Below are positions 1,991-30,860 of a stretch of 35,758 nt of DNA, one piece after another. Position 1 is the first letter of the stretch, and each line of letters starts with the position of its first letter. Both the position numbers and the translations under genes were made by a program. The notes below the pieces were generated by a model. The model searched no databases and was not told where the DNA came from. It saw only the letters and a list, made by a program, of their open reading frames with translations. This DNA comes from a virus. The stretch spans positions 1 to 35,758 of IMG/VR virus record IMGVR_UViG_3300042691_028937. One strand, given 5' to 3'.

Positions 1991-2120
1991 TGGCTGGTGG
2001 AGCTGCGGCGGCTGCGGTGACGAGCTCGAGGTCGGCGTGGAGCATGAGTGTCCCGTCCTGGGCTCCGTCGTACTCGTGACGCTTCGGAAGGAGGCGACCG
2101 ATGAATCTCCCCGTCCATGA
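1980..2120 (+). CDS. Tiny CxxC...HxC zinc-binding protein
   Basis: A 46-residue frame starts at ATG 1980 inside the end of the upstream ParB-like gene (seven codons before its start lies GGAGGTGCC, a good ribosome site) and runs 20 bases into the dioxygenase gene. It contains C9 and C12 (SCGGCG) with H22 and C24 (EHEC), consistent with a zinc site. It is the third small cysteine protein in this operon. It fills the otherwise empty 110-base gap and keeps translational coupling, which supports it being real. Function unknown. Confidence 0.5.
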   Translation: MEHDGWWSCGGCGDELEVGVEHECPVLGSVVLVTLRKEATDESPRP

Positions 2121-2964
2121 AGTAGACCGGCTGATGGACCGTGACGAGGCTTCGGCGCTCGTGGGCGCCCTGGTGCCCGAGATGGAGCCCAACGCCGGCG
2201 ACCCCGGCATCTGGGTAGACCGGGCCACCGGCGACCCTGTGCTCGTGGTACTGGCCCTCCCGCGCACCACCACGGCGCCGCTGCGGCGGGCCGTGCTGAC
2301 CGTCAAGTACGGCGTCACCACCCGGCAGACCACCGGCCTCAACAACCGCTCGCGGACCTTCGGCATGGCGCCGCGCAAGGTCTACCAGATGCGGGAGGCC
2401 TGCCGGCCGGCGGCCCTGGCCTCTGAGCAGCCCGACGTGCACGACGTGCTCGTGCGCACGGCCCTCGAGCTCGAGGGCGCGCTGCGCGAGCTGGCGCCCG
2501 GCGTCTGGGACGAGGGCGAGCACACGATGGAACAGGTAGCCGACGAGTGGCGCATCGCCGAGGGCTCCGTCTGGACCTCCGGCGTCATCAACAAGACCTC
2601 GACCCTCCCGTACCACCGCGACGGCTTCAACTTCGACGTATGGAGCGCGATGCCCGTCCTGCGGCGGGCCGTAGCCGGCGGCAACCTTCACTTCCCCGAA
2701 TGGGGCCTCACGTCTGCCTCCCGCGACGGCACGGCCCTGTTCTTCAACGGCTTCCGCAACGTGCACGGCGTCACCCCGCTCGCCATGCGCGCGGAGGACG
2801 GCTATCGCTTCACCATCGTCTACTACTCGCTGCGCGGCATGAAGGACTGCTTCACCTACGCCGTCGAGCAGGCCCGGGCGCAGGCGAAGCGCACCGAGCG
2901 CGAGGATGGCATCGCCGCGGCCGTCCGGGGAGAGGGCGGCTACCGCGTCTGGGGCGACGAATGA
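2101..2964 (+). CDS. TET/JBP-type 2-oxoglutarate/Fe(II) dioxygenase
   Basis: Protein of 287 residues; AAGGAGG lies about seven bases before the ATG. The C-terminal half carries the double-stranded beta-helix dioxygenase signature: YHRDGFNFD with the HxD metal pair at H172/D174, the distal metal histidine H222 in RNVHGVTP, and R236 in GYRFTIVYYS, the expected 2-oxoglutarate-binding arginine. The order and spacing resemble the TET/JBP family, which oxidises the methyl group of 5-methylcytosine or thymine in DNA to hydroxymethyl. The N-terminal 130 residues are less conserved. The next genes are a thymine-pyrophosphorylase-clade protein, a PLP enzyme and a kinase, the neighbourhood described for phage TET/JBP genes, so it probably creates the hydroxymethyl base they elaborate. 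Whether the substrate is thymine or methylcytosine cannot be read from the sequence; another DNA-acting 2OG oxygenase is less likely. Confidence 0.78.
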   Translation: MNLPVHEVDRLMDRDEASALVGALVPEMEPNAGDPGIWVDRATGDPVLVVLALPRTTTAPLRRAVLTVKYGVTTRQTTGLNNRSRTFGMAPRKVYQMREACRPAALASEQPDVHDVLVRTALELEGALRELAPGVWDEGEHTMEQVADEWRIAEGSVWTSGVINKTSTLPYHRDGFNFDVWSAMPVLRRAVAGGNLHFPEWGLTSASRDGTALFFNGFRNVHGVTPLAMRAEDGYRFTIVYYSLRGMKDCFTYAVEQARAQAKRTEREDGIAAAVRGEGGYRVWGDE

Positions 2965-4022
2965 TGGAGCTGGTCGCTGGCTCCGACTTCCGCCGGCCTG
3001 AGCTCCGCCGCGAGGTGTTCCTGCGGTTCTACGACTTCCACCTCCGCCACGGCACCCATCCGGGGCTCGTCTGGGCCCTGTTCCCGTGGCTCGCGGAGCG
3101 GTTCGGCTGGGACGAGGAGACCTACGCCTGGTTCTGCTTCCTCAACGGCAACACGCAGAATCCCATCACCTCGCTCATGCTGCTCGAGGCCGCGCCCTCG
3201 CCCGCCCAGGCTCAGGCCGCGGTGGACTTCTGGCGCGCCGAGTACGCCCGGCTCGAGTGGGACACCGACCGCCGCTACCACAAGCGGATGTTCGACGTAG
3301 CGGTCGAGGGGTATCTGGCGGTCGTGGGCTCACGACAGCTCGATTACTGGCGCGGCGCCCGCTCCTGGGAGGGCGTCTGGGCTCTCGCCACGGCCCTTCC
3401 GACGTTCGGACGGCTCTCAGCCTGGTCCTATCTCGAGTACCTGTACCTCGCCGGCATCCACGACCACGACGCCTCCACCCTCATGCTCGCTGACCGCTCG
3501 GGCTCGCGGTCGCATCGCAACGGGCTGTGCATCGTGTCCGGCCGTGACGAGTTCGACTGGCACGACTCCAACCCGACCTTCGACGGCAGCTACCCGCCCG
3601 ACCTGCTCAACGACCTCGGCGACGTGGGCGAGGACCTGCTCGCGGCGGCCCGCGCCCGCCGGCCCGGCGACCGCGCGGTGTCGCGGCTCACCCTCGAGAG
3701 CGCCCTGTGCACGTACAAGAGCTGGCACCGCCCTCGCCGGCGGTATCCGAACGTCTACGCGGATATGCACTACAACCGCGTCACCCGGGCCGAAGGACTC
3801 TGGCCCGAGAGGGACTTCGGCCTGTGGTGGGAGGCCCGTTCGGCCCTGCTCCCGGCCGCCCTCCGGCTCGAGGACAATCCCTACGACCCCGGGCTCCACC
3901 CCGACAAGCAAGACCACTACCGGCTCACCGGGCAGGTCATCGTCATGGACTGCGAGGAGCCCTGGGCGGCCAACGACTTCACCGCCCGAGTGGCGGCGGG
4001 CGCGTGGGGCCGGTGCCGATGA
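2961..4022 (+). CDS. Alpha-glutamyl/putrescinyl-thymine pyrophosphorylase-clade protein (possible amino acid:DNA transferase)
   Basis: Protein of 353 residues starting at ATGATG overlapping the dioxygenase stop; either Met may be used. I recognise features of the phage family first predicted as alpha-glutamyl/putrescinyl thymine pyrophosphorylases: FLNGNTQNP at residues 60-68, DRSGSRSHRNGL in the middle, and ALCTYKSW with RRYPNVYADMHYNR around residues 248-275. Members of this clade transfer an amino acid or amine onto a phosphorylated 5-hydroxymethyl pyrimidine in DNA (amino acid:DNA transferase). The context fits exactly: oxygenase upstream, PLP enzyme and P-loop kinase downstream, all coupled by 4-base overlaps. 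Which amino acid is used cannot be told. The clade assignment is from remembered motifs and needs a profile search. Confidence 0.68.
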   Translation: MMELVAGSDFRRPELRREVFLRFYDFHLRHGTHPGLVWALFPWLAERFGWDEETYAWFCFLNGNTQNPITSLMLLEAAPSPAQAQAAVDFWRAEYARLEWDTDRRYHKRMFDVAVEGYLAVVGSRQLDYWRGARSWEGVWALATALPTFGRLSAWSYLEYLYLAGIHDHDASTLMLADRSGSRSHRNGLCIVSGRDEFDWHDSNPTFDGSYPPDLLNDLGDVGEDLLAAARARRPGDRAVSRLTLESALCTYKSWHRPRRRYPNVYADMHYNRVTRAEGLWPERDFGLWWEARSALLPAALRLEDNPYDPGLHPDKQDHYRLTGQVIVMDCEEPWAANDFTARVAAGAWGRCR

Positions 4023-4888
4023 CCCTGACGCCCTGTGAGGAGCGCGGCGGCCGCTGGTACAAGCGCGACGACCTCAACCGCCACCCCTCCGGCGTGAACG
4101 GCGGCAAGTGGCGTCAATGCCTCTGGCTGGTCGAGCGCGCCCAGGCCCAGGGCTATCGGCGCATCGTGTCCGGCGCCTCCATCCTGTCCCCGCAGCTACC
4201 GATGGTCGCCACCGCGGCCGCGGGCGCCGGCCTCACCTGCACGCTCGTCATCGGCGGTACCACCCCAACCTCCGCCGCCCGCCAGCCCGGCATCCGCATC
4301 GCGGCCGATGCCGGCGCCGAGCTCCGGGTCATCGCCGTGGGCTACAACCCCGCGCTCCAGGCCGAGGTTCGCCGGCTCGTGGAGGCCGACCGCGGCCGTG
4401 AGGCCGCCATCCTCCACTACGGCATCACCCTGGGGCCCGATGCCTCGCTCGCTGATTACCGGGCGTTCCACAACCTCGGCGCGCAGCAGGTACGGGCCTT
4501 ACCGCCGGCCGTGCGCGAGCTCGTGGTTCCGTTCGGCTCGGGCAACAGCGGCGCATCCGTGCTCTACGGCCTGTCGCAGGGCCTGGCGCCCGGCGTCGAG
4601 CGCGTCCACCTCGTGGGCATCGGCCCCAACCGCCAGGCCTGGCTCGCTGCGCGGCTCGAGCTCCTGGGCGCCGACCTCAGCGACCTCGAGGTCATCCACC
4701 ACGACCTCCACGGCGCCGGCATCGTCACCTACGGCCAGCGCGTCCGGTGGGTCTCCGACGGCATCGTCCTTCACCCCACCTACGAGGCGAAGGTCGCCCG
4801 CTGGCTCGAGGCCTCCGACGCGGTGCCAGCCTGGAACCGCCCGGACGGCTCCGTGGCCCTCTGGGTCGTGGGAGGTCCACTCTCGTGA
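4019..4888 (+). CDS. Fold-type II PLP-dependent enzyme of the base-modification operon
   Basis: Protein of 289 residues, start at the ATGA overlap. It resembles the ACC deaminase/D-cysteine desulfhydrase branch of fold-type II PLP enzymes. KRDDLN at the N-terminus is followed by NGGKWRQ, with K30 the likely Schiff-base lysine (family pattern GGNKxRK). SGASILSPQ at about residues 50-58 sits where this fold binds the substrate carboxylate and PLP phosphate, and VPFGSGNSGAS at about 165-175 is a glycine-rich phosphate-binding loop. It is somewhat shorter than the usual ~330 residues. PLP enzymes in phage hypermodification clusters act on the amino acid attached to the base, for example by decarboxylation or elimination, and that is the likely role here. 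The exact reaction is unknown. Confidence 0.75.
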   Translation: MTLTPCEERGGRWYKRDDLNRHPSGVNGGKWRQCLWLVERAQAQGYRRIVSGASILSPQLPMVATAAAGAGLTCTLVIGGTTPTSAARQPGIRIAADAGAELRVIAVGYNPALQAEVRRLVEADRGREAAILHYGITLGPDASLADYRAFHNLGAQQVRALPPAVRELVVPFGSGNSGASVLYGLSQGLAPGVERVHLVGIGPNRQAWLAARLELLGADLSDLEVIHHDLHGAGIVTYGQRVRWVSDGIVLHPTYEAKVARWLEASDAVPAWNRPDGSVALWVVGGPLS

Positions 4889-5394
4889 GGGCGGCCTACG
4901 TCATCGGCGCGCCCGGGGTCGGCAAGACCACCGCGCTCGAGCTGGCATTCCCCGCGGTGGCGCCGGCGGAGCGCGCCCCGGGCCCGTTCGGGCTCCTGTG
5001 GCTCACCCCCATCGCCGGCGGGTGGCGCCTGGGGCGGCCTCGAGCGCGATTCTCCGGCACCGACGCACTCGCCATGAACGTCCACCCCCAGGCCGTCGCA
5101 TGGGCCCTCGCGGCGCCGATGCCGGAGGTGGTCGTGGGCGAGGGGCAGCGGCTCGCCACCGCCGCGTTCCTCGACGCCCTGCGGTCCCGCGGCACCGTCC
5201 GGCTCATCCACCTCACCGCCGACCCGCTCGAGCTCGAGCGCCGGCGCGCCGGCCGCGGGCAGAACGAGACCTGGGTACGCGCAGCGACGACCCGAGCCGC
5301 GAACCTCGCCGCCGAGCTCGGCGCCGCCACCATCGACACCACCGGCCTGTCGCCGGACCTCGTGGCGGAGGTCCTGCGGTCGCTCGTGGAGTGA
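4885..5394 (+). CDS. P-loop nucleotide/DNA kinase, candidate hydroxymethyl-pyrimidine DNA kinase
   Basis: Protein of 169 residues from GTG 4885, which overlaps the previous stop (GTGA) and has GGGAGG about nine bases upstream. Walker A is GAPGVGKT at residues 8-15. VVVGEG near residue 75 could be the Walker B-like strand. HLTADPLELERRRAGRGQNETWV resembles the lid and arginine region of small NMP-kinase-like proteins, and LAAELGAATIDTTG that of the last strand. Such P-loop kinases in phage hypermodification clusters phosphorylate the 5-hydroxymethyl group in DNA to make a leaving group for the transferase. The start is certain from spacing; the substrate is inferred from neighbours. Confidence 0.75.
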   Translation: MRAAYVIGAPGVGKTTALELAFPAVAPAERAPGPFGLLWLTPIAGGWRLGRPRARFSGTDALAMNVHPQAVAWALAAPMPEVVVGEGQRLATAAFLDALRSRGTVRLIHLTADPLELERRRAGRGQNETWVRAATTRAANLAAELGAATIDTTGLSPDLVAEVLRSLVE

Positions 5395-14200: not shown

Positions 14201-16027
14201 CTGACGCGGCCGCGGGCAGGCCGTAAGCAGGCCGGCGTCGGCGTCTACCGCCGGCGGCCGGCGGACCGCGTCCTGTTCCGGCGGTACATTCCGCCCTCTG
14301 CTCCTGCGGGCACGCCCGTCGTCACCGGCGCGGCCTCCGCCCGCTCGAGCTCGCGGGCCGCCGCCGCCTCGACCGTCACCACGACGGCCGTGGCCTCCGC
14401 GCGCACCCGCTCGCGGGCCGCCGCCATCTCGCTCGTCATCGTCCCGGCCGCGGTCTACACCAACCGCCGCTACACCTTCGACGAGGGCACCGACGCCTCG
14501 ACCATCACGACGGGCGACACCGGCTCCGGCGACCCATTCGACGGCGTCACGATTGGGGTCGGGAACTCCGTCGAGTACGACACGGCGGTCCGGCTTCACG
14601 GGAAGGCGTCGGCGCGTGTCTTTACCGACACGAACAACAACGGCAACTTCTACTGGTCGTTGCTCGAGGAGCCCGAACGGTTCTATGTCTGCATCTACTC
14701 GCGGCTCACTACGGTCGGCTCGCTCCTGCGCATCGTCTACTTCCTCCAAGGGAACAACTCAATGGGCGGCGCGCGGTTCAACACCTCGCGCGTCCTGGCG
14801 ATGCTCGACGACGCCGGGGCCGTCATCACCGGTTCGACGTTCACGACCATCCCGAACCTAGGCGAGTGGTTCCGCCTCGAGGTCTACATCGAGCCCGCGA
14901 CCGGCGGATGGGAGCTGCGACTGTTCACCGGGGCCGACCTCGAGAGTGCGACCCCGACCGAGTCCAAGTCCGGAACCGGCGCATCGTTCACGTCGGGCGG
15001 GACGCTCATCGCGAACCGTGTGCGGTTCGGTTCCGTCGGCAACGCGCATGAGTTCTACATCGACTCAGCCGCGGTCTCGACCGGGTCATGGCTCGGGCCC
15101 TGGCGGCCGCTGCGCTATCGCTCGAGCTCGCGGGCCGCCGCCATCTCGACCGTCACCACGACCGCGGCGGCCTCCGCCCGCTCGAGCTCGCGGGCCGCCG
15201 CCACCTCGACCGTCACCGCCGGCACGGTCACGGTCACCGCGGCGGCCACCGCCCGCTCGAGCTCGCGGGCCGCCGCCATCTCGACCGTCACGACGACGGC
15301 CGTGGCCTCCGCGCGCACCCGCCCTCGCGCCCTCGCCGCCGGCCTGGGGCTCGCCCTCGGCGCCGCCTCCGAGAGAGGCCGCTCGCGGGCCCTGGCCGCC
15401 GGCCTGGGGCTCGCCCTCGGCGCCGCCTCCGCGAGAGGCCGCTCGCGGGCCCTGGGCACGTCCCTGCGCATCGCAACAGCCTCGGCTAGTGCTCGGGGCC
15501 AGGCACGCTCCCTCGCGGCTTCCTCGAGCATCACGACGGCCGCGGCGGCCTCCGCCCGCTCGAGCTCGCGCGTCATCGCCATCTCGACGGTCGGGACGGT
15601 CACCGTCGTCACCGCTGCGGGTGGCTCGCGGAGCGCCCCGCGGGCTCTCGCCGCCGCCTCGGGCATCACGACGACGGCCGTGGCCTCCGCGCGCACCCGC
15701 CCTCGCGCCCTGGCCGCCGGCCTGGGGCTCGCCCTCGGCGCCGCCTCCGCGCGGGCTCGCACACGCTCCCCGGTGGCCGCCTCGAGCATCACGACGACGG
15801 CCGTGGGGCGCAGCCGGACCACCACCCGGGCGCCTCTCATCACCCTGGCCCTCACGACGGCCGTGGGGCGTGACCGCGGCCACGCCCGCGACGCGGCCGT
15901 CAGCGGCGCCGGCGTACTCTCATTCGTGCTCGACCTGGGCCGGGCCGCCTCCGGGCCCGACCTGGGCCGCTCGGGCATCGGCTCCCGCGAGGTTGCGAGC
16001 GCGGCCGTGACCGCCGACATAGGCTGA
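14201..16027 (+). CDS. Repeat-array structural protein with an inserted lectin-like domain, probable CTG start
   Basis: No ATG/GTG lies near the 5' end of this frame. GGGAGGAGGG at about 14184-14193 sits seven bases before CTG 14201, and coding is continuous from there, giving 608 residues; a GTG at 14390 would lose the first repeats. Residues ~45-83 carry two copies of a 20-residue repeat (SARSSSRAAAASTVTTTAVA type). Residues ~87-303 form a concanavalin-like domain (YTFDEGTDAS; NLGEWFRLEVYIEPATGGWEL; IDSAAVS). After it come about 13 further repeats to residue ~565, then LDLGRAASGPDLGRSG. Each unit pairs an Arg/Ser-rich half with a hydrophobic/Thr half, suggesting a fibrous beta structure. 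A single matching unit ends the protein at 26090-27046. It is probably a virion fibre. Confidence 0.6.
   Translation: MTRPRAGRKQAGVGVYRRRPADRVLFRRYIPPSAPAGTPVVTGAASARSSSRAAAASTVTTTAVASARTRSRAAAISLVIVPAAVYTNRRYTFDEGTDASTITTGDTGSGDPFDGVTIGVGNSVEYDTAVRLHGKASARVFTDTNNNGNFYWSLLEEPERFYVCIYSRLTTVGSLLRIVYFLQGNNSMGGARFNTSRVLAMLDDAGAVITGSTFTTIPNLGEWFRLEVYIEPATGGWELRLFTGADLESATPTESKSGTGASFTSGGTLIANRVRFGSVGNAHEFYIDSAAVSTGSWLGPWRPLRYRSSSRAAAISTVTTTAAASARSSSRAAATSTVTAGTVTVTAAATARSSSRAAAISTVTTTAVASARTRPRALAAGLGLALGAASERGRSRALAAGLGLALGAASARGRSRALGTSLRIATASASARGQARSLAASSSITTAAAASARSSSRVIAISTVGTVTVVTAAGGSRSAPRALAAASGITTTAVASARTRPRALAAGLGLALGAASARARTRSPVAASSITTTAVGRSRTTTRAPLITLALTTAVGRDRGHARDAAVSGAGVLSFVLDLGRAASGPDLGRSGIGSREVASAAVTADIG
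15119..15900 (+). repeat. Coding 60-bp repeat array
   Basis: The C-terminal part of the fibre-like gene consists of about 13 units, mostly 60 bases (20 codons), with a few of 63-75. The block encoding LAAGLGLALGAA recurs with near-identical bases near 15333, 15393 and 15708; the first two are exactly 60 bases apart. The unit encoding SSRAAAISTV recurs near 15121, 15181 and 15255, and also at 14341 before the inserted domain. Near-identity at the DNA level points to recent expansion by slippage or recombination. Confidence 0.8.
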
Positions 16028-28660: not shown

Positions 28661-28983
28661 TGCCCGGCCGGCTCGACCGCCTCGTGGGCCCTGAGCGGGC
28701 CCGGCCGGCGCTCGTGTGCTGCACCCCGTACTCAGCGCCGGCGCCCTCCGGGTGGGCCTGGTTCCACTCCCGCTCGTGCCCGTGGGAGCCTCGGCAGAAG
28801 GTCCGGCCCGAGCGGGCTCCCCGGCGTGACGCCCCGCTCACCCCGGCCCAGGCCGACCGCCTCCGCCCCACGGGCGGGACGGCGCTCCTGTGCTGGCTCA
28901 CCCACCCCGAAGGATGCCGCTGCTACGGCTGTTCCTACACCGATGCCCACCTCGACGAGGGAGGACCCCAGGATGACGACTGA
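28660..28983 (+). CDS. Cysteine-rich small protein of unknown function
   Basis: Protein of 107 residues starting at the TGATG overlap. ALVCCTPYSAPAPSGWAWFHSRSCPW and LLCWLTHPEGCRCYGCSYTDAHLDEG contain paired cysteines and histidines, suggesting metal binding. The C-terminus overlaps the ERF gene by 11 bases. The middle is basic (PRQKVRPERAPRR). No family is recognised. Confidence 0.55.
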   Translation: MPGRLDRLVGPERARPALVCCTPYSAPAPSGWAWFHSRSCPWEPRQKVRPERAPRRDAPLTPAQADRLRPTGGTALLCWLTHPEGCRCYGCSYTDAHLDEGGPQDDD

Positions 28984-29641
28984 CACCACCGAACCGCTCG
29001 AGGACGAGCCCTGTGACGACTGCGACGACTTCGCCGAGCTCGTGGGCGCCCTCGCCCGCGCCCAGGCAGCCTTCCCCGTCGTGCGCAAGACCAAGACCGC
29101 GAAGGCCGGTTCCTACACGTACACCTATGCCTCGCTCGACGACGTGCTGGCAGCCGTCCGGCCGGCGCTCAACGCCGAGGGCATCGCGCTCCTGCAGGAC
29201 GCGGTGAACCGCGGCAACAGCATCGTCGTGACCACGACCATCCGCCGGGGCGCGGCCTCCATCGACTTCGCCCCGTTCGAGCTCCCCGTGGCCGATGCCA
29301 GCCCGCAGGGTGTCGGCTCCGCCCTCACCTACGCCCGGCGCTATGCCCTGTCCACCGCCCTCGGCATCGCCGCGGAGGAGGACGACGACGGGACCCTGGC
29401 ACAACCGGCGAAGGCCGCCCGCGACTCCGCCGCGGTCACCGAGACCGTCATGCGCCGGCTCCACGCCGTGGCCCGCAAGAAGGGCATCACCCACGAGCAG
29501 ATGACGGACTGGGCCGGCCGCCACCTCGGCATCGAATCTCTCACCGAGCTGACCAAGGCCGGCGCCGCGGAGATGGAGAAGTCTCTCAACAGCCTCCCCG
29601 ACGCCGAGGACGGCGAGCCGGCGGTGATGACCGATGCCTGA
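28973..29641 (+). CDS. erf: ERF-family single-strand annealing protein
   Basis: Protein of 222 residues; GAGGGAGGA stands about ten bases before ATG 28973. After an acidic, Cys-containing leader, FAELVGALARAQAAFPVVRKTKTA and YTYTYASLDDVLAAVRPAL match the start of ERF proteins, and GSALTYARRYALSTALGI at residues 115-132 is their signature. The C-terminus is a separate helical segment ending in an acidic tail. It anneals complementary single strands in phage recombination and replication. The next gene encodes a nuclease-fold protein, a natural partner. Confidence 0.85.
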   Translation: MTTDTTEPLEDEPCDDCDDFAELVGALARAQAAFPVVRKTKTAKAGSYTYTYASLDDVLAAVRPALNAEGIALLQDAVNRGNSIVVTTTIRRGAASIDFAPFELPVADASPQGVGSALTYARRYALSTALGIAAEEDDDGTLAQPAKAARDSAAVTETVMRRLHAVARKKGITHEQMTDWAGRHLGIESLTELTKAGAAEMEKSLNSLPDAEDGEPAVMTDA

Positions 29642-30023
29642 CTTCGACCTCGACCTTCGGTACGGGCTCGAGCGCGAGGGCGCCTTCCGCGCGGTGCTCG
29701 AGGCTGACACCGTAGAGGTCAAGTCCGACCGGCAGGCCGTCCAGACCGGCAACCTGTTCCTCGAGTACGCCCGTATCGCCGGCTCTGACCCCTCGCTGGT
29801 CGAGCCCTCCGGGCTGCACGCCTCGAGCGCCGACGTATGGGCCTACGAGTGGGCGCCCGGATGCTGGCTCGTGGTCCCCACGGCCATGCTGCGGGCCGTG
29901 GTCGCCGCCGAGGGCCATCGGCACGTCTGGGGCGGTGACGGCGGGCGCGCCCGCGGGGTCCTAGTCTCGCTCACGCGGCTCATCGCCGCCATCCGCTCGG
30001 AGGTGTCGCATGGAACCTCGTAG
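29634..30023 (+). CDS. PD-(D/E)XK nuclease-fold protein
   Basis: Protein of 129 residues overlapping the ERF gene by eight bases. D25-T-V-E28-V-K30 gives the acidic/E-x-K active site, preceded by helix residues E13/E15 and followed by DRQAVQTGNLFLEY (residues 32-45), typical of small Holliday-junction-resolvase-like or Cas4/RecB-related phage nucleases. A further strand ADVWAYEWAPGCWLVVPT completes the fold. Close coupling with ERF suggests recombination-linked end or junction processing. Confidence 0.7.
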   Translation: MPDFDLDLRYGLEREGAFRAVLEADTVEVKSDRQAVQTGNLFLEYARIAGSDPSLVEPSGLHASSADVWAYEWAPGCWLVVPTAMLRAVVAAEGHRHVWGGDGGRARGVLVSLTRLIAAIRSEVSHGTS

Positions 30024-30309
30024 GCTTCCCCGTGTCCGGCCGTCCGGGCCCTCTCGAGCCTCGGGCCCTGGGCGGCCGGACCGCCTCTGGTGGCTCCCCG
30101 TGCCGCTGTTCGCCGGCTGGCTGTTCGGCATCGCCTGGTTCATCGTCGAGGTGAACCTGTGGGCCGGCATCGCCTGGTGGGTCCTGTATCCGCCCGTGGC
30201 CCTCGGCGGCATCACCCTGTCCATCGCCCTGTCCGAGCGCCACGCCGGCAACGTCCGGCGCCGCGCCATCCGCCGCCATCCCTCCACCTACCATCGGGTC
30301 GGGTGGTGA
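30010..30309 (+). CDS. Two-pass membrane protein
   Basis: Protein of 99 residues, ATG 30010 overlapping the nuclease gene by 14 bases, with GGAGG upstream. A basic, Pro/Arg-rich start (about 28 residues) precedes two membrane segments (~residues 30-50, LWWLPVPLFAGWLFGIAWFI; ~53-78, AGIAWWVLYPPVALGGITL), then a basic C-terminus RRRAIRRHPSTYHR. Both ends would face the cytoplasm. Function unknown; it immediately precedes the candidate origin. Confidence 0.6.
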   Translation: MEPRRLPRVRPSGPSRASGPGRPDRLWWLPVPLFAGWLFGIAWFIVEVNLWAGIAWWVLYPPVALGGITLSIALSERHAGNVRRRAIRRHPSTYHRVGW

Positions 30310-30342
30310 CCTGTGGGGAACCTGTGGGGAACCTGTGGGTAG
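30310..30342 (+). repeat. Three 11-bp tandem repeats with DnaA-box-like cores
   Basis: CCTGTGGGGAA is repeated at 30310-30320 and 30321-30331, and a variant at 30332-30342 reads CCTGTGGGTAG. The cores TGTGGGGAA (30312, 30323) are reverse complements of TTCCCCACA, close to the DnaA box TTATCCACA. The period of 11 bases puts the sites on one face of the helix. Confidence 0.7.
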
Positions 30343-30492
30343 ACGGTGGGCAACTTCGCACGCAGGCCGAGGTTGTCCCCATCCGTGCTCGGGACTCCAC
30401 CGCGAATCCACCACTTATCCACACGCCCGAACCGGGCCTGACCTGCAGCGATGGGCACTTATCCACCGCCTCGGGAGGGGCCTACTACTACC
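30310..30492 (+). other. Candidate DnaA-dependent replication origin
   Basis: The 221-base non-coding gap 30310-30530 contains reverse-oriented DnaA-like boxes at 30312, 30323 and 30334, and forward ones TTGTCCCCA (30373-30381), TTATCCACA (30415-30423, the exact consensus) and TTATCCACC (30459-30467). After the last box comes a 14-base GC-rich spacer and then CTACTACTAC (30482-30491), whose complement read 3' to 5' is GATGATGATG, the DnaA-trio pattern of bacterial basal unwinding systems. A less GC-rich stretch follows. The arrangement is box, GC spacer, trio, as in Bacillus oriC. It lies beside ERF and nuclease genes. Alternatively it could titrate DnaA or be operator repeats. Confidence 0.5.
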
Positions 30493-30530
30493 GAACTACC
30501 TAGAAGAACTTCAGTAGCAGGGAGGAACAG

Positions 30531-30860
30531 ATGAGCAAGAGCAACGGGGCCCGCGGGCCCTCCGGGCCGCCCGACGGCGCCCCGGTCCAGGTCCAGCCCG
30601 GCCCCATCCCGACGCAGTTCTTCACCCAGGTCATCACGGCCTCCGACGGCACGCGGTGGGCCCTGTTCACCGCGGTCACGCCCGCCGGCGCCCAGACGTA
30701 CTGGCTTCCGCCCGGGCTCCCCGCGGAGGTAGCCGCCCTGCTCACCCGGGCTGAGGGCGAGCTCGGCGCCGGCGGGCCCTCGGGGCTCATCGTGCCCGAC
30801 GTCGATGTCAATGCCGTCCTGCGGTCGCTCGAGGACCCGCCTCGGGGAGGTGCGACGTGA
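30531..30860 (+). CDS. Unrecognised protein with Pro/Gly-rich ends
   Basis: Protein of 109 residues; AGGGAGGA stands before ATG 30531. A low-complexity N-terminus (GARGPSGPPDGAPVQVQPGP) is followed by a compact segment, FFTQVITASDGTRWALFTAVTPAGAQTYWLP, resembling a small beta sheet, then a helix. It is the first gene after the candidate origin and overlaps the next by four bases. No function is suggested by the sequence. Confidence 0.6.
   Translation: MSKSNGARGPSGPPDGAPVQVQPGPIPTQFFTQVITASDGTRWALFTAVTPAGAQTYWLPPGLPAEVAALLTRAEGELGAGGPSGLIVPDVDVNAVLRSLEDPPRGGAT

Follow-up and report, generated by a model that had tools for sequence, protein, structure and literature searches.

The usual description of phages and plasmids is that they supply their own initiator, with DnaA assisting at most. 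A cluster of DnaA-box-like sites in a virus record from IMG/VR raises the question of whether a phage can carry an oriC-like replication origin and have it opened by the DnaA of its host. The record, IMGVR_UViG_3300042691_028937, is referred to here in its entirety as the window; it comprises 35,758 bases with ~70-75% G+C, is described as 'linear', and is possibly a fragment. A preliminary description, made from the sequence alone, had placed a bacterial-style origin in one intergenic gap of this record and had proposed that recruitment of host DnaA would explain how the phage starts replication.

Gene content and likely host of the window

The window contains terminase, portal, protease, capsid and head genes; a tRNA search found none, and a comparison with Rfam gave no match. 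An ERF-family ssDNA-annealing protein (PF04404, phrog_155/phrog_2324) is encoded on the plus strand at 28976..29641, with its domain ~1 kb upstream of the box-spacer-trio module described below, and the first gene downstream of that module (30531..30860, plus strand) encodes a 109-aa protein of unknown function for which we found no relative. Between the ERF gene and the module, at 29634-30023, is a gene for a phrog_13596 protein, also of unknown function, whose relatives are mostly from Pelagibacter phages. Given that the G+C content is high, that the capsid protein has relatives in four actinobacterial genomes, and that the ERF protein is similar to those of Microbacterium and Mycobacterium phages, we infer that the host is likely to be an actinobacterium. 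We found no close relatives of the window: the best ERF match was 47% (34 loci), relatives of the major capsid protein in viral and genome collections reached 46-47% at most, and the 23-base repeat pattern of the segment under study had no relatives that we could find.

Elsewhere in the window, two ParB-like genes with near-repeated stretches are found at 463-1125 (phrog_620, E 7e-33) and 1354-1990 (recognised by eye). Four genes in a row at 2101-5394 are likely to form a DNA-hypermodification cassette, consisting of a Tet/JBP-like oxygenase (PF12851, with a match just below the cut-off and a PHROGs family label of queuine tRNA-ribosyltransferase), an amino acid:DNA transferase (PF18724), a PALP-type PLP enzyme, and a P-loop nucleotide kinase (PF18751). 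It is possible that base modification by this cassette alters DnaA binding.

A cluster of DnaA-box-like sites in one intergenic gap

The box-bearing gap lies between a gene ending at 30309 and the gene starting at 30531. We scored sites against a relaxed box consensus, TTNTCCACA, and against the strict E. coli consensus, TTATCCACA. On the minus strand, TTCCCCACA occurs at 30312 and 30323 (at most one mismatch to TTNTCCACA), followed by a weaker site, CTACCCACA, at 30334, and a weak box-like site, TTGCCCACC, at 30345..30353, each with two mismatches. The plus strand carries TTGTCCCCA (30373..30381, one mismatch to TTNTCCACA), a perfect DnaA box, TTATCCACA (30415..30423), and a last box, TTATCCACC (30459..30467, one mismatch to TTATCCACA), which is the box of the unwinding module. 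Successive sites start 11, 11, 11, 28, 42 and 44 bases apart. The preliminary description had claimed that DnaA-box-like 9-mers, one of them perfect, occupy this gap together with three phased 11-base repeats, and both claims held: there are five sites with at most one mismatch and two weaker ones, and ACCTGTGGGGA-like units start at 30309, 30320 and 30331 as a direct repeat with a period of 11. On the minus strand these box-like repeats (30309..30341) read TTCCCCACAGG, TTCCCCACAGG and CTACCCACAGG.

An equal density of such 9-mers elsewhere in the genome had been named as grounds for refuting the origin. Only six TTNTCCACA-like sites in the whole window have one mismatch or none, and five of these fall within 30312-30467; shuffles support the cluster. 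Seven sites with at most two mismatches are found in 183 bases, whereas across 100 shuffles of the whole window the best count averaged 3.98; a single shuffle reached eight sites by plain count, and none equalled the weighted score. Moreover, none of 2,000 local dinucleotide shuffles was as good as the cluster. The significance of the cluster depends on the relaxed consensus, since the strict E. coli consensus with one mismatch gives only two sites, a number found in 15 of 100 shuffles. GC skew, suggested as a further check, shows no switch at 30.4 kb, which is a weak test given that most of the phage genes are on one strand.

A box, spacer and trios arranged as in bacterial origins

The last box was said to be followed by a 14-base GC-rich spacer and trio-like triplets, in the order of the bacterial basal unwinding system (BUS). 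Published rules for finding a BUS call for a box with no more than two mismatches to TTATCCACA, a spacer of 0-16 bases and, on the other strand, three or more NAN trios, with GAT preferred beside the box (PMC8287927). We re-implemented these rules and applied them to the window and to 200 shuffles. All of them are met by TTATCCACC at 30459, with one mismatch, a GC-rich spacer of 14 bases (30468..30481), and three perfect DnaA-trios and no more, these being three copies of 3'-GAT-5' on the minus strand at 30482..30490 (CTACTACTA on the plus strand); none of the shuffles contained a candidate as good. The order held as described. CTACTACTA occurs at one other place in the window, 23534. The lowest-GC 40-mer of the window (45%), at 30480..30519, is both the candidate unwinding stretch and the leader of the next gene, and we found no DNA hairpin at the trio stretch beyond those in shuffles. 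A second candidate under the BUS rules, at 14622 (two-mismatch box, spacer of 16), was dropped as chance; shuffles average 0.66 candidates.

The module resembles the BUS of Bacillus subtilis and other bacteria in having a box, a spacer of at most 16 bases and then at least three 3'-GAT-5' trios in the same orientation (PMC8287927). It differs in being on a phage without dnaA or dnaN, in having the minimum number of trios, and in having one box rather than a tandem pair, which is the commonest bacterial form (57%); its spacer of 14 compares with a published peak of 10-13 (PMC8287927). As for a chromosomal oriC, the segment satisfies one criterion, a DnaA-box cluster adjoined by an AT-rich stretch, but fails two others, the GC-skew switch mentioned above and neighbouring dnaA or dnaN genes: no DnaN was found in the window, and tblastn with Streptomyces DnaA and DnaN gave no match. 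The segment is therefore no chromosomal oriC, although it is likely to work like a BUS-type one, with DnaA binding and opening being inferred.

Specificity of the pattern for origins

We sought the pattern TTATCCAC-N(5-17)-CTACTACTA in 296 Actinomycetota genomes, with the backward-read pattern as a control. Ten genomes had a match, and the control had none. Nine of the ten matches sit between dnaA and dnaN, eight of them being a near-identical Streptomyces-type origin, indicating that the box-spacer-trio pattern marks origins. Since each genome is at least 1.0 Mb, the search covered more than 296 Mb and gave no more than one match outside an origin, such that an accidental match in a 36-kb window would be expected less than ~1 time in 8,000. 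The Streptomyces-type oriC (L350, L354-L360) has a box array, TTATCCAC, a 13-base spacer and CTACTACTA, in an order identical to that in the window; unlike the module in the window, it is flanked by dnaA and dnaN and contains a second box inside the spacer, and there is no detectable DNA homology between the two. The possibility of a copied host oriC was rejected at the sensitivity of blastn against 396 Actinomycetota genomes, with 30311-30530 giving only chance-level matches and none of 12 fetched match regions lying beside dnaA or dnaN.

Recurrence of the module in other viral contigs

We scanned viral contigs for the strict pattern TTATCCACA-N(4-16)-CTACTACTA, using as a control an otherwise identical pattern whose trios are on the wrong strand. 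There were 61 loci versus 34 control loci and, after related contigs had been grouped, 50 versus 17 independent groups (binomial p=3e-5). Box arrays, defined as three or more additional boxes within 200 bases, were present at 31 of the 61 loci and 3 of the 34 control loci, or in 24 of 50 and 2 of 17 groups (Fisher p=0.007); the array-less groups (26 versus 15 in the control) are much nearer background. Many of the array-bearing loci resemble textbook origins, with phased box arrays, tandem last boxes, a GC-rich spacer, long CTA runs and an AT-rich flank. A second scan, for boxes whose last base is not A, gave 29 stretches, nine of them with arrays. At one locus (L278:6899-6960) we observed a trio run, a short gap and then an inverted copy (TAGTAGTAGTAG), an arrangement that could open in either direction.

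Box arrays alone do not imply the module, since trios are not enriched at loci with three tandem boxes. A scan of viral contigs for such loci gave at least 120 stretches, many of them near terminase genes; among 80 loci checked for trios, a score of at least 9 was reached downstream in three and in the opposite direction in one. Separately, 24 of these 80 loci (L116-L195, e.g. L119, L121, L126) have perfect TTATCCACA arrays close to genes for a terminase and a ~140-aa neighbour; these arrays may conceivably serve a different phage group in packaging or as origins.

Similarity among some of the loci extends beyond the trios into the next 40 bases downstream. The letters common to the window and the record G001 (ACTTCAGTAGCAG) were not equalled in any of 1,000 shuffles, and shuffles were as good as the similarity to G450, L377 and L395 in 5, 7 and 4 of 1,000 cases, respectively; there was no likeness in this stretch to G003 (283 of 1,000) or to Streptomyces L350 (309 of 1,000). 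When these stretches are aligned, the last box of the window occupies the place of the trio-nearest box of the others, with ~10 additional bases in between; in the look-alikes G450 and L377, the nearest box lies ~10 bases closer to the trios and belongs to a tandem pair, whereas the window has a single box. The extra bases count against a fully standard module, although a spacer of 14 is within the published limit.

The module recurs beside genes for ERF or RecT. A search of 12 records for ERF was positive in three, at 1,025 bases from the module in the window, 536 bases in G003 and 384 bases in G450. G003 (21.8 kb) has portal, terminase and one further large protein in common with the window, in addition to ERF (49.5% over 103 aa), and G450 (42.3 kb) has its module beside the ERF gene. 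RecT was sought in 42 records and found in two (G007 and G013), in each case 2.3 kb from the module. Hence, the recombinase is within 2.3 kb of the module in all five ERF/RecT records, for which random placement has a probability of 3.5e-5. This value is not free of selection, because G003 and G450 were picked for the ERF search after a resemblance had been noticed, and the other 30 of the 42 records were left out.

Phage identity of the module-bearing records

We found no DnaA in the 24 records tested, of 31 array-bearing records from the first scan, and no DnaN in any of 42 records (31 from the first scan, ten from the second, and the window). Likewise, tblastn with Streptomyces DnaA and DnaN against the window, stretches of 17 further loci and three pieces of G001 gave no match; the positive control matched. 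The terminase family phrog_2 was detected in 14 of the 31 array-bearing records, once weakly, and it also matches most bacterial control genomes; phrog_9 was detected in 5 of the 42 records, including the window, twice weakly. A major head protein is encoded directly upstream of the module in L278, as is an endolysin in L377, and G003 carries terminase and portal genes. Given that several records, including G001, had neither terminase family, not every record is proven to be a phage beyond its status as a virus record. DnaB_C was found in 2 of the 31 array-bearing records versus 4 of 19 controls (the subset of 34 that are at least 15 kb), and PolA in none of 51; these counts support no conclusion, since record lengths differ.

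Isolate phages gave no useful DNA similarity to the module-bearing records, and we found none with the module. Nine regions around ERF or RecT from isolate phages all lacked both a box cluster and the module, and several of these phages are annotated with replication proteins of their own. A relaxed scan of 114 other loci, reached via ERF or capsid kinship, found no comparable cluster; these loci are distant and often short.

Discussion

We conclude that 30309-30520 is likely to serve the phage as a replication origin that is organised in the manner of bacterial oriC and opened by host DnaA. The parts of the module, their order, orientation and spacing, the specificity of the pattern for origins, and its recurrence in other phages beside ERF or RecT are shown here; what we infer is that DnaA binds and unwinds the segment, that helicase is loaded there, and that the origin is used during infection. 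We favour this reading because the box cluster is beyond chance, the BUS rules are met, the pattern is origin-specific and recurs without dnaA or dnaN, and the module adjoins ERF. Against it are the lack of a GC-skew switch, the single box, a number of trios that is the published minimum, and the fact that we found no isolate phage with the module. The earlier reading, an origin in BUS order that recruits host DnaA, is thus supported as the best one, with binding, unwinding and origin activity still inferred. As for the accompanying claim that no phage polymerase or replicase is present, we found no DnaB_C helicase or PolA in the window, and no initiator family was recognised among the early genes scanned. 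These absences are suggestive only, and a missing initiator is weak evidence, because the record is a linear and possibly incomplete contig.

The protein steps of the mechanism that we propose are inferred from the bacterial system. Host DnaA would fill the box array at 30312-30423, and DnaA at the last box (30459) would nucleate an ATP-DnaA filament, which would cross the 14-base GC-rich spacer onto the three minus-strand DnaA-trios (30482-30490). The adjacent AT-richer, low-G+C stretch would then open, and host helicase and replisome would load, such that the phage would have no need to encode an initiator. The ERF annealing protein encoded nearby may serve later, recombination-dependent copying. 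A bolder reading is that there is an overlooked and widespread class of phages with complete host-type oriC modules and no initiator, which initiate solely via host DnaA, pair this origin with ERF or RecT for later recombination-driven copying, and have the module fitted in each lineage to the DnaA of the host; taken as a whole, this reading could as readily prove wrong as right.

Origins with DnaA boxes are familiar from other mobile replicons. Like the window, phage P1 oriR and iteron plasmid origins (RK2 type) have DnaA boxes on a mobile replicon, but they require a replicon-encoded Rep. DnaA has been reviewed as assisting plasmid Rep, with published data giving no indication that it contacts the single-stranded unwinding element of plasmids (PMC10797057). 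In Pseudomonas phage PseuGes_254, an origin with DnaA boxes and an AT-rich stretch was predicted by Ori-Finder (PMC11512268); unlike the window, this phage has DNA polymerase A among its named signature proteins, and trios are not mentioned in the origin-related passages of the paper (PMC11512268). Our search of the open-access literature, at the level of abstracts, found no phage origin described with trios. Plasmids and phages with DnaA boxes have been described before; judged by that literature, a phage origin with BUS trios is likely to be new.

Several alternatives to a host-DnaA origin can be considered. One that we regard as unlikely is that the box array is a decoy, titrating host DnaA and delaying replication of the host chromosome without being an origin; datA of E. 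coli is a comparable DnaA-titrating site. Consistent with a decoy, box clusters without trios are common in viral contigs (the three-box stretches described above), and weak boxes are many here. However, a sink requires neither trios, nor a fixed spacing between box and trios, nor an AT-rich stretch, and trios on the correct strand are enriched and coupled to box arrays, matching the oriC found between dnaA and dnaN.

Two other alternatives are very unlikely. The segment could be a DnaA-responsive promoter, through which DnaA would regulate the downstream early operon (the gene at 30531 onward) and the phage would sense the replication state of its host. Indeed, the segment is the leader of that gene, and DnaA is a known transcription factor (PMC8203912). 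Arguing against a promoter, we found no sigma-70-like promoter in 28-32 kb, although actinobacterial promoters may escape detection; trios are not known to have a role in transcription control; and the module of G450 has its trio end directed towards the 3' end of ERF rather than towards a gene start. The segment could also be an iteron origin, with the phased 11-base repeats binding an unrecognised phage initiator and DnaA merely assisting, as in P1 and iteron plasmids. There are three such repeats and unknown small genes nearby at 31-35.7 kb, and DnaA boxes on plasmids usually assist a Rep protein (PMC10797057); nonetheless, the repeats are themselves DnaA-box-like, we found no initiator family among the scanned early genes of this possibly incomplete record, and an origin opened by Rep has no need of full BUS anatomy. 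Lastly, the arrangement could be due to chance, or to a misassembly that placed part of a chromosomal oriC in a viral contig. This is conceivable in that DnaA boxes are degenerate and host DNA can occur in IMG/VR, but is all but excluded by the shuffles, the phage genes on both flanks, the lack of dnaA and dnaN in the window, and the ERF synteny in other phages.

If the segment is an origin opened by host DnaA, as we favour, it would represent a naturally occurring minimal oriC that is not part of a chromosome, providing a direct test of whether a box, a spacer and trios suffice for initiation. The box-spacer-trio pattern could be used to locate origins in viral metagenomes. For the phage itself, replication would be tied to the DnaA level and the cell cycle of its host.
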